Shown here: positions 6,003 through 45,085 of the stretch, piece by piece
Layout of the letters: each line of letters opens with the position of its first letter
Numbering within the stretch: position 1 is the stretch's first letter
Origin: Halobacteriales archaeon YIM A00010
Lineage (GTDB): Archaea; Halobacteriota; Halobacteria; Halobacteriales; Haloarculaceae
Length of the DNA: 64,000 nucleotides
Reading direction: 5' to 3'
NCBI GenBank assembly: GCA_025041175.1
Contig: JAKCFJ010000001.1
Span: forward strand, 1-64,000
The notes under the pieces: model-generated
Database searches by the model: none
The model's input: only the letters and a program-made list of their open reading frames with translations
Told to the model about the DNA's origin: nothing
Program-made: the position numbers and the translations under genes

Positions 6003-6059
6003 TTTCACTGTATCGACGTTCGTTCCATCAGTACCTTTATGTGTGATGGGGCAGCGAAG

Positions 6060-6159
6060 AATACGTGGGAACGCCAGCCAACGACGTGGCGCGCGTTCAT
6101 TGAAACGCGCCGGGTGCTAAGGTCACCCGACGCTGGGGTTCCCATCGCACGAGAATCCC
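6060..6159 (+). promoter_or_regulatory. Predicted structured 5' leader, copy A
   Basis: A TATA-like CTTTATGTG at about 6035-6043 lies upstream of a leader with three hairpins. Hairpin 1: GCGCGTTC / GAAACGCGC at about 6089-6110. Hairpin 2: CGGGTG / CACCCG at about 6111-6129. Hairpin 3: GGGGTTC / GAATCCC at about 6135-6159, ending directly at the ATG. The same three hairpins, with different loops and a compensated third stem, precede the decayed copy at 23139. This suggests a cis-acting RNA, perhaps controlling translation of the microprotein. Confidence 0.55.
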
Positions 6160-6306
6160 ATGATGGGAAACGCATCAGAGGCATGTAACGGTGTCGCATC
6201 GTATCAAGAAAACGAGCAGCGCACGCACTGCCCGGTGTGTGGCCGGCCGGTTCGCACGCGTCTGGAACACCGGACGGGCTGTCCGTTGGGGCGGTGGTGG
6301 CGATGA
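6160..6306 (+). CDS. Zinc-finger microprotein (48 aa)
   Basis: A 48-aa protein with a Cys/His cluster CPVCGRPVRTRLEHRTGC (residues 24-41) that looks like one zinc finger (C-x2-C ... H-x3-C). The remainder is short and polar. The start is the first of two adjacent ATGs at 6160, matching the position of the ATG in the second copy of the locus. Its TGA overlaps the next ATG (cgATGA), so it is translationally coupled to the 185-aa partner. It has a structured leader upstream. The function is unknown; small haloarchaeal zinc-finger proteins often act as regulators, but that is inference. Confidence 0.75.
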   Translation: MMGNASEACNGVASYQENEQRTHCPVCGRPVRTRLEHRTGCPLGRWWR

Positions 6307-6860
6307 CGTTGCCGTTGTTCCAGTTCCGGAATCAGCGGGGGGAGGTGGTGAACCTCTCGGCTGCCACGGATCGGGCGGAGATCGTGACGGCCGAACTGTA
6401 CCACAGTATCGACGTGAGTGAGGGGTTGTGGTGCAGACCGTGCCAATCGACGGGCTGCGCGCACGCCACCCAGATCGAGCAGATACTCGCGACCGCCGGG
6501 CTTGGTAGAACCCGAACGGGCGGGTACGACGAACTGCCGGGGATCGCACGATTCACGCGCTACTGCGCTACCGGTGAGACGATCATCGAATGCTGGTTCG
6601 ATAACGGCGCGTGTGTCCGATTCCACGAACAGCGCGATGGCGACGTGATCCAGTCCGTGTTCACGCCCGAGGACTCGCGCGAGCCGGCCGAGATCACGGA
6701 CAAGCCGGATGCCGAGAGCGCGCCCGCGTGTCTGGTCAAAACACTCGTGGAGTACTGCAAGTATCGCCAGCGCGGCGATCTCGCTGGCTTGCGCCAGCGT
6801 TATCCCAACCTAGCCCGCGTCGTCGGTGCGACCGCCGCTGCATCCACCACCGACGATTGA
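6303..6860 (+). CDS. Conserved hypothetical protein, partner of the zinc-finger microprotein
   Basis: A 185-aa acidic soluble protein starting MTLPLFQFRNQRGEVVNLS. A Cys/His cluster CRPCQSTGCAH at about residues 44-54 could bind a metal. I do not recognise the family. The start is set by the ATGA overlap with the microprotein; a longer open frame exists upstream in the same frame but it covers the microprotein coding sequence. A close relative lies at 23282-23881, interrupted by a hairpin insertion. Conservation of both genes, the overlap and the leader in two places argues that the pair works as a unit. Confidence 0.8.
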   Translation: MTLPLFQFRNQRGEVVNLSAATDRAEIVTAELYHSIDVSEGLWCRPCQSTGCAHATQIEQILATAGLGRTRTGGYDELPGIARFTRYCATGETIIECWFDNGACVRFHEQRDGDVIQSVFTPEDSREPAEITDKPDAESAPACLVKTLVEYCKYRQRGDLAGLRQRYPNLARVVGATAAASTTDD

Positions 6861-23049: not shown

Positions 23050-23138
23050 GGAGGGCGCAGCCACATGTTGCGCGCGTTCGAAAGCGCGCCGGGTGTGCAC
23101 TCACCCGACGCTGGGTTCTCCAGTTGCAAGAGATACCC
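23050..23138 (+). promoter_or_regulatory. Predicted structured 5' leader, copy B
   Basis: A TATA element CTTTATATGTG at about 23020-23030 precedes a leader matching copy A. Hairpin 1: GCGCGC / GCGCGC at about 23071-23089. Hairpin 2: CGGGTG / CACCCG at 23090-23107 with a different loop. Hairpin 3: GGGTTCTC / GAGATACCC, ending at the ATG at 23139. The third stem differs in sequence from copy A but still pairs, which supports an RNA structure. Confidence 0.55.
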
Positions 23139-23279
23139 ATGACTGGGAATGAATCAGAGACATGTAACGGTGTCGCATCGTATCAGAATGATAACTAGAG
23201 AACGCGTTGCCCGGTATGTGGCCGGCCGGTTCGGTCGCGCCTCGACCACCGGATGGGCTGCCCGTTGGGACGGTGGTAG
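23139..23279 (+). pseudogene. Decayed zinc-finger microprotein, copy B
   Basis: This aligns along its length with the microprotein at 6160. It starts MTGNESETCNGVASYQNDN and then has an in-frame TAG at 23196-23198. Past the stop the same frame reads RTRCPVCGRPVRSRLDHRMG and CPLGRW, so the zinc-finger part is still conserved. The end (TAG at 23277-23279) is 2 nt before the next ATG rather than overlapping it. It is broken unless the stop is read through. Confidence 0.75.
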
Positions 23280-23281
23280 CG

Positions 23282-23881
23282 ATGAGTTTGCCAGTGTTTC
23301 AGTTCCGGGATCGATTGGGGGAGGCGGTGAATCTCTCGACCGTTGAGGATCGAGAGACGATCTCGAAGGCCGAGCTGTACCACATCGTCGATGTCGGTGA
23401 GGGAGTCTGGTGTCGCCGAGCGAAGCTCGGCTGCTAACCGAAACTCTCCGAGTTTCGGTGATGCCGACCGTGCCAGAGTACAGGCTGCGCGCACGCCACT
23501 CAGATCGAGCAGATCTTGGCGACTGCCGGGCTTGGTCGGTCTCGAACGGAGTACGACGAGTTGCCGGGGATTGCCCGCACCACCCGGTACGACGATACGG
23601 GTGAGAGGGTCGTCGCCGGCTGGTTCGAGAACGGTGGGCGCGTTCGGTGCCACGAGCAGCGTGATGGCACCGTCGTTCAGTCGGTGTTCACTCCAGAGGA
23701 CGAGCGAACCCCGGCCGAAGAGACCGAGAATCACGACGCAGAGAGCGCTTCGGCACGTCTGGTCGAAACGATGGTGGAATACTGTCAGCATAGACAGCTC
23801 GGTGACTTTGATGGCTTACGGCAGCGCTATCCCAAACTGGCGCGCGTCGTGGGCGAGCCCACCGCTGTATACGGGGACTGA
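23282..23881 (+). pseudogene. Decayed partner gene, copy B, interrupted by a hairpin insertion
   Basis: This is a relative of the 185-aa protein at 6303. The first 50 codons (MSLPVFQFRDRLGEAVNLST...) align. Then 51 bases at 23413-23463 are inserted within the WC(R)PC motif, bringing in-frame TAA (23435) and TGA stops. After it the same frame continues CRPCQSTGCAHATQIEQIL to the end at 23881. The 51 bases are a multiple of three, so the frame is kept but closed. Confidence 0.75.
23413..23463 (+). repeat. 51-bp hairpin insertion, TCTCCGA type
   Basis: It contains two hairpins: CCGAGC-GAA-GCTCGG (23416-23430) and CCGAAACTC-TCC-GAGTTTCGG (23438-23458), the second flanked by CTGCTAA and TGATG. 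The same arrangement, with a different but complementary stem, occurs at 48442-48474. Its limits are given by comparison with the intact gene at 6303. Confidence 0.7.
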
Positions 23882-44327: not shown

Positions 44328-44567
44328 CTACTGTAACTCGATCTCGATGTCGCCTGCGATGTCCCGGATAACGGCGTCGCACAGCGGGCAGTCGGGCACG
44401 GCGACCATCACATCGTCGCCGGTCTCGATGCCGATTTCGAGCGTCGATTGGCACTCACACGCCGGACAGACATTCGTCCGGCTCCAACAGTGCAACAGGA
44501 TGGCCTCTTCAACGTCTGCTTTGATGTTAGCGATGCCTTCAAGGTCGTTTGGGTTAGAATCGAACAT
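44328..44567 (-). CDS. Small double-CxxC zinc-ribbon protein
   Basis: A 79-aa protein with NVCPACECQSTLEIG (CxxC-x-C, about residues 32-46) and VPDCPLCDAVIRD (CxxC, about 57-69), a complete four-Cys zinc ribbon. It is acidic and cytoplasmic. The function is unknown. A damaged relative lies at 48282. The stop is 15 nt from that of the convergent 2-hydroxyacid dehydrogenase gene. Confidence 0.75.
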   Translation of the reverse strand: MFDSNPNDLEGIANIKADVEEAILLHCWSRTNVCPACECQSTLEIGIETGDDVMVAVPDCPLCDAVIRDIAGDIEIELQ

Positions 44568-45085
44568 GGTCTTCTAGCCGGTATGGAGACCACAGTCGGG
44601 TGTCTTGAGCACCCGGCACCCACACGATCCGTGTGGGTACTTTCGATGTGTGCGGCCTCCGATCCCATTCTTGCCTCGTTATGATATAAAACTCTAGGCT
44701 ATCGGATTGGTCGTGTTGTTGTATTGATCGGTGGGGGATAGGGAGCGGTGGCTATCGGTTGGGTGTGGTTTCGGAACTGGTGGTTTCGTCGTGACTGCTG
44801 TGGATGTAACTGGTCGGTTTGGAGTCGAGGTGAGGTTTCGATGCCTGGTTCGCTGCTGGCACAGTTGAAATGGGGTGTGAAATTCCATGGAGCGTCTCGA
44901 TAAAGCCTTTTCCACTCGTTTCAGCGCTATCCCGCTTCGTGGACTCCCGCTGTACACGGATGGTATAACAGTCAACGAAGGATAGCACCAATACGTTCCG
45001 AGACACGCATCGCTCCTACCAACGATCCACGTCCGGACTCCGAACGACCCATCGAATTATCCGTGCGGAGTGATACATAACTGGT
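44568..45085. other. Gap of about 520 bases with a G+T-rich strand segment
   Basis: 44700-44880 is markedly G+T-rich on the + strand. GTTTCGATGCCTGGTT at 44835-44850 recurs with one change at 48541-48556. Open frames on the minus strand here are Ser/Thr-rich and match nothing I know. Confidence 0.4.

Follow-up and report, generated by a model that had tools for sequence, protein, structure and literature searches.

A multicopy leader RNA with a hypervariable hairpin loop precedes genes for small, putatively zinc-binding proteins in haloarchaea

Introduction

Recognition loops of the U-turn (YUNR) type occur in antisense RNAs. In haloarchaea, the brz-brb operon of Halobacterium salinarum is, in the accessible text of its descriptions, a single locus that regulates bop (PMC2253796, PMC3184054), and most of the C(P)XCG zinc-finger micro-proteins of Haloferax bind zinc, according to the accessible parts of two reports (PMC6562870, PMC11241148). 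The locus described here combines a structured RNA with genes for two short Cys/His proteins, and it is well supported that this RNA is widespread and multicopy, that it is tied to small zinc-binding proteins, and that one of its loops is rapidly replaced yet constrained.

Results

An overlapping gene pair outside the named families

The window, i.e., the whole stretch of 64,000 nucleotides that was analysed (positions 1 to 64,000 of contig JAKCFJ010000001.1 of Halobacteriales archaeon YIM A00010), contains a first unit with the following features.

6025-6049, forward strand: putative promoter region, where the inverted repeat CCATCA-N13-TGATGG encloses a TATA-like CTTTATG (6035-6041); from the sequence, conserved in most of 31 copies
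6067-6145, forward strand: leader RNA with helices P1-P2-P3; 82-85 bits with models R1/R2, covariation
6111-6129, forward strand: P3, made up of CGGGTG (6111-6116), loop CTAAGGT (6117-6123), and CACCCG (6124-6129)
6150-6159, forward strand: segment before the ATG that is able to pair with the P1 3' strand (anti-P1, putative role)
6160-6306, forward strand: ORF1, 48-aa C2HC zinc-finger-like protein; open reading frame and conservation in the copies examined
6303-6860, forward strand: ORF2, 185-aa protein with invariant C44, C47, C52, and H54 (SWIM-like spacing), no family

The first-pass annotation had described two genes that overlap by ATGA, with short Cys/His clusters in both products and neither protein assignable to a named family, and this description holds. 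ORF1 (6160-6306) runs into ORF2 (6303-6860), and the clusters read C-x2-C-x10-H-x3-C in ORF1 and WCRPCQSTGCAH in ORF2. ORF1 is well conserved in the copies examined, and the four Cys/His residues of ORF2 are invariant in a 16-member alignment. Neither protein has a match above the cut-off in Pfam or NCBIfam or among the PADLOC models of anti-phage defence systems, and nothing in PHROGs is significant. Family searches with the two ORFs give no match to a transposase or integrase for either of them. ORF2 also lacks a profile match to the SWIM zinc finger (PF04434), a convincing match by sequence among solved structures, and any match among phage records. A Natrinema plasmid match to ORF2 was discarded as weak (30% over 78 residues), its annotated context being unrelated. 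The AlphaFold2 model of ORF2 (pLDDT 74), compared by Foldseek and VIA-align, recovers common β-sheet arrangements only, with a best Z of 5.5 that is no higher than unrelated models reach, and the model of the 48-aa ORF1 is poor (pLDDT 59).

A covarying three-helix leader

At the head of every unit there is an RNA of about 80 nucleotides with three helices (P1, P2, and P3), placed by sequence position just upstream of the ORFs on a predicted transcript. P3 is nearly invariant (CGGGTG-loop-CACCCG), and in the first unit its pattern match spans 6107-6133. The earlier suggestion of a structured leader is borne out by 20 of 24 base pairs with double compensatory changes in wider, model-fitted alignments, a result reached in 0 of 500 shuffles and one that collapses in slid controls. 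As model fitting favours structure, a structure-free MAFFT alignment of 31 leaders provides the cleaner test, though its structure string came from one member sequence, and here the structure beats all 500 shuffles on five of five measures. Even the arms of P3 show a compensatory change in one copy (L091, CAGGTG/CACCTG). The leader is apparently undescribed: it reaches the gathering score of no family in Rfam 15, the literature searched contains no paper found to describe it, and it is not mentioned in the accessible part of a study on morphogenetic haloarchaea (PMC10067837).

In most copies displayed, P1 is preceded by a TATA-like element at a distance of about 25-35 nt. The inverted repeat that surrounds it in most YIM A00010 copies is a possible operator, and the region would serve as the promoter. 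A few copies (L016, L027, and L030) possess a different upstream version in place of this repeat.

Homogenised units in Halocatena

A second occurrence of the unit in the window, with the same gene order, had been noted before, and it consists of the following features.

23050-23123, forward strand: leader RNA of unit 2, loop TGCACT (23096-23101); models R1/R2
23140-23278, forward strand: ORF1 of unit 2, with a stop at codon 20
23282-23881, forward strand: ORF2 of unit 2, interrupted
23411-23461, forward strand: 51-nt two-hairpin insert with in-frame TAA and TGA, in ORF2 of unit 2

Unit 2 (23139-23881) retains the gene order of unit 1 and 76% and 64% amino acid identity to its two products, but it is broken, with a premature stop in ORF1 and an insert with two stops in ORF2. 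A mere duplication understates the situation as well, as 26 copies of ORF2 in the YIM A00010 genome are intact, 5 are interrupted by an insert, and fragments occur in addition. All of them reside on contig C1, the main chromosome with its 31 units (2.86 Mb of a 5.97 Mb genome), and the uninterrupted copies are 79-90% identical to the query. Neither the gene pair with its copies nor the structured leader can be put down to chance.

The insert is composed of a hairpin, CTGCTAAC, a second hairpin, and TGATG. It occupies an identical ORF2 codon in five YIM A00010 copies (unit 2, L034, L035, L036, and L037) and in at least three copies of H. pleomorpha (L123, L124, and L125). A TGT codon precedes it, and in most copies TGT is found again behind it. 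Its hairpins show compensatory differences between species, one hairpin loop is found both as GAA and, in the opposite orientation, as TTC, the frame is variable, and the reading frame beyond the insert is largely open. The insert may be a relic maintained by gene conversion, or else an intron-like or bypass element. Other irregularities include additional, incomplete copies of the unit's 3' end, either downstream of full copies or alone (L018, L034, L035, L038, and L039), and an intergenic repeat between ORF1 and ORF2 (runs such as CACCTTTTTTCCG...) that breaks the ATGA coupling in L009 and L025 and, in genome G361, in L071, L075, and L077.

ORF2 is present in seven of seven Halocatena genomes, and the records that match it belong to this genus (H. 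pleomorpha, H. marina, Actinarchaeum halophilum YIM 93972, and YIM A00013). Among 391 genomes of the class only Halocatena members possess it, apart from one weak match elsewhere, and a profile search of 392 genomes of the phylum retrieves the YIM A00010 genome only. By sequence comparison, the protein pair is confined to Halocatena, hyphae-forming haloarchaea; YIM A00010 is itself a hyphae-forming strain (PMC10067837). The expectation that the pair would occur in tandem across the Halobacteria finds no support. It is the leader RNA that is widespread.

Within each Halocatena genome the units are homogenised. Judged by flanking genes, 14 YIM A00010 loci have an orthologous locus in G361, seven of them by both flanks, so that at least 14 sites are shared, with the remaining copies unmatched. 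Orthologous ORF2 pairs from these two genomes are 63.0% identical (nine measurable pairs) compared with 63.2% for all cross-species pairs, and copies within one genome have mean identities of 83% and 86%. As orthologous pairs are no closer than the cross-species average, the loci are shared and their sequences have been homogenised within species. The closer pair of genomes G183 and G392 retains ordinary ORF2 orthology (94.7%). At four of the seven loci with both flanks (L011/L067, L017/L073, L020/L071, and L022/L077) the unit is inverted between collinear flanks, which indicates that in-place inversion or reinsertion also happens.

A widespread RNA in front of diverse small genes

Model R1 detects the RNA in 88 of 391 genomes of the class (E<=0.01), and model R2 in 103 of 391 haloarchaeal genomes from 41 of 86 genera (E<=1e-4), both counts being lower bounds with 11 candidates scored per genome. 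When 150 candidates are scored, twelve other genomes present 3 to 29 copies, eleven of these at least 7, and 12 of the 13 fully scored genomes carry 7 to 30 or more. The exact core exists also in two other genera, and plasmid records with similar DNA come from Natrinema, Halopiger, Halostagnicola, Natribaculum, and Halomontanus. The 55 RNA matches in the YIM A00010 genome (E<=0.1) include several that are weak or represent the reverse strand of known copies; the sure set comprises the C1 unit leaders, several copies on contigs C4 to C7, and a third copy in the window.

44583-44660, reverse strand: third leader RNA copy, loop CTCAAGA; 37.8 bits with R1 and 47.1 bits with R2
44328-44567, reverse strand: 79-aa ORF behind the third RNA, zinc-ribbon-like with two Cys pairs (CPACEC...CPLC)

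The closest family for this 79-aa ORF is Zn_ribbon_IS1595 (E=0.002, below the cut-off). A viral origin was considered as well, and a pattern scan yielded 12 viral contigs with weak model scores (up to 25.6 bits), none of which is claimed.

The RNA is linked to small zinc-binding genes, and in the copies inspected the ORF that begins right after it is, with few exceptions, small and Cys-rich, of the SWIM type, or short and basic. In Halocatena the order behind the RNA is C2HC protein, then ORF2. In genomes of family f3 a short basic ORF comes behind the RNA (e.g., MIAYILPGYKRPARQ or MTQYQPRDLKRLANALYSPRN), and most copies continue with a zinc-finger ORF of 50-100 aa (CPRCG...CGC). Behind a copy on contig C5 of YIM A00010 (L306) a SWIM protein is encoded (E=9e-8), and in genome G238 the RNA precedes a single protein that combines a near-cut-off SWIM finger (E=0.0038) with a C2HC finger. 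The latter arrangement resembles a fusion of the two Halocatena ORFs and, by motif, hints that their products might work together; the 185-aa ORF2 shows no significant similarity to SWIM proteins. L206 in genome G250 has a small ORF behind the RNA and then a protein that could not be assigned to any family.

One might regard the units as selfish, non-autonomous mobile or invertible cassettes that spread and homogenise by recombination, with an RNA that serves their own propagation, and the 31 dispersed copies, the presence of the RNA on other replicons, and the in-place inversions at four of the seven both-flank orthologous loci would agree with this. However, no resemblance to a transposase or integrase is seen in either ORF, different species have many loci in common, and in other genera the RNA heads unrelated genes, so that we consider such a cassette quite unlikely.

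A hypervariable loop on a near-invariant stem

The P3 loop is hypervariable. In Halocatena 77 of 88 loops are distinct, with all 30 YIM A00010 loops of that set different from one another, and over many genera 141 of 184 are distinct. When 20 non-overlapping copy pairs are compared, the flanks mismatch at 58/2430 (2.4%) and the loops at 57/134 (43%), an 18-fold difference (Fisher p=6e-47), and identical loops number 3 compared with 17.1 expected. Loops do not track leader similarity, as loop identity is near chance even at high flank identity, and an avoidance of identical loops within a genome was dismissed for want of a clear deficit (4 observed vs. 6.4 expected).

The loop appears to keep U-turn-like constraints, with a length of 6-7 nt, U at position 2 in 61%, and a purine at position 6 in 96% of the 7-mers. 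It is also strand-asymmetric, AGG occurring 36 times and CCT 2 times, which suggests that selection sees the RNA. Loops recur in unrelated genera (CTAGGA, for example, in five genomes), and 7-mer loops coincide 32 times where a first-order Markov model predicts 6 (maximum 16 of 500), a few of these coincidences stemming from orthologous loci. A search around each copy showed no enrichment of its loop sequence or of the reverse complement.

Mutations are known to concentrate at the tips of hairpins, and the leader could be an ordinary, riboswitch-like RNA with a functionless apical loop, whose hairpin DNA is hypermutable by cruciform cutting and template switching and in which only stem-preserving variants survive. 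Both the two orientations of the hairpin loop in the 51-nt insert (GAA and TTC) and the failure to find a loop target near its own copy are in line with this explanation. In contrast, a length fixed at 6-7 nt, the purine at position 6, the strand-specific bias, and identical loops across unrelated genera beyond the Markov expectation speak against it, and we consider it rather unlikely. Similarly, the geometry of arms and spacer, the replacement of loops, and the in-place inversions might lead one to see CGGGTG-N6/7-CACCCG as a site-specific recombination core, in which inverted arms surround a variable crossover spacer and loops are replaced at each exchange. As strand-asymmetric loops and covarying P1 and P2 point to RNA, and the compensatory arm change of L091 fits RNA pairing, this seems highly improbable.

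A putative translational switch

In many copies the bases right before the ATG complement the P1 3' strand, and this complementarity is copy-specific. With one copy taken per distinct P1, the P1 3' strand forms a mean run of 5.32 with its own pre-start segment and of 4.45 with swapped segments (maximum 4.84 in 500 swaps). If the P1 5' strand is blocked, the P1 3' strand pairs with the linker in 83% of the copies compared with 66% (maximum 73%) for swapped linkers, and the two alternative folds differ by about 2.6 kcal/mol on average. There is moderate reason to view P1 and P1/anti-P1 as mutually exclusive helices, the values being only moderately above those of swapped linkers.

Since the P1 3' strand can pair in front of the start codon, we read the RNA as a cis-acting translational switch with a copy-specific loop, shared by a large class of haloarchaeal modules, a proposal to which we give about an even chance. 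That the RNA switches, in which direction it acts on expression, and what the loop and the proteins do is inferred as follows. The module would place a structured RNA of about 80 nt at the 5' end of the mRNA or close to it, ahead of one or two genes whose products are small and either zinc-binding or basic. In one state, P1 would close the core of P2 and P3, and in the other, the P1 3' strand would pair with the pre-start bases and hinder initiation. A common factor, either a ligand or a protein, perhaps the zinc-finger products of the unit itself, might read the near-invariant P3/junction. The loop of 6-7 nt would confer specificity on each copy, and the simplest way would be for a trans-acting partner to pair with it or to read it. 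The encoded protein pair would act jointly as a nucleic-acid-binding regulator. The first-pass annotation had proposed an undescribed regulatory or defence-type module, and what stands of this is a unit that is conserved, multicopy, and undescribed, with tandem Cys/His proteins behind a structured leader; no evidence for defence was found.

A bolder, speculative reading, which we hold to be unlikely, is that the RNAs make up a varied collection of address loops, in which a near-invariant hairpin platform presents an actively renewed, U-turn-like loop and each locus reads a different partner. Such partners could be RNAs acting in trans, or nucleases that cut anticodon loops and for which the loops serve as bait.

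Discussion

An RNA family found in roughly one in four of the haloarchaeal genomes searched has apparently escaped notice so far. With it, many orphan small zinc-finger proteins gain a common regulatory context, and the RNA family has a link to hyphae-forming haloarchaea. Hypervariability confined to one loop, on a stem that hardly varies, is usual where molecules must distinguish one another. The leader RNA may represent a new kind of gene-control or recognition system, and it raises the question of what reads the loop. If the loops were indeed addresses, they would belong to an archaeal RNA-based system of recognition or identity without known counterpart.

Like riboswitches and autoregulatory mRNA leaders, this RNA is a conserved, covarying 5' leader with apparently mutually exclusive helices adjoining the start codon. 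In contrast to them, it has 7 to 30 or more paralogues in many genomes and exposes a hypervariable loop on a near-invariant stem, without a known ligand or Rfam family. Compared by architecture only, the unit resembles brz-brb, where the genes of a zinc-finger protein and a basic protein, both small, are co-transcribed and regulatory, although brz-brb is a single locus and such a leader RNA is absent from the accessible text of its descriptions (PMC2253796, PMC3184054). The C(P)XCG micro-proteins of Haloferax are likewise very small haloarchaeal proteins, but the accessible parts of the reports do not present them as one homogenised family of many copies with a shared RNA in front (PMC6562870, PMC11241148). 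With SWIM zinc fingers (PF04434) ORF2 shares the C..C...CxH arrangement, and a true SWIM protein follows the leader RNA at L306, although ORF2 itself does not match the profile. The small, copy-specific P3 loops, with U followed by purines, resemble the U-turn (YUNR) loops of antisense RNAs, a likeness of appearance only, whereas no antisense partner was found for the P3 loop. Taken alone, the leader would join a known kind as a new member. What is novel is the combination of a near-invariant hairpin with a renewed, copy-specific loop in tens of copies.
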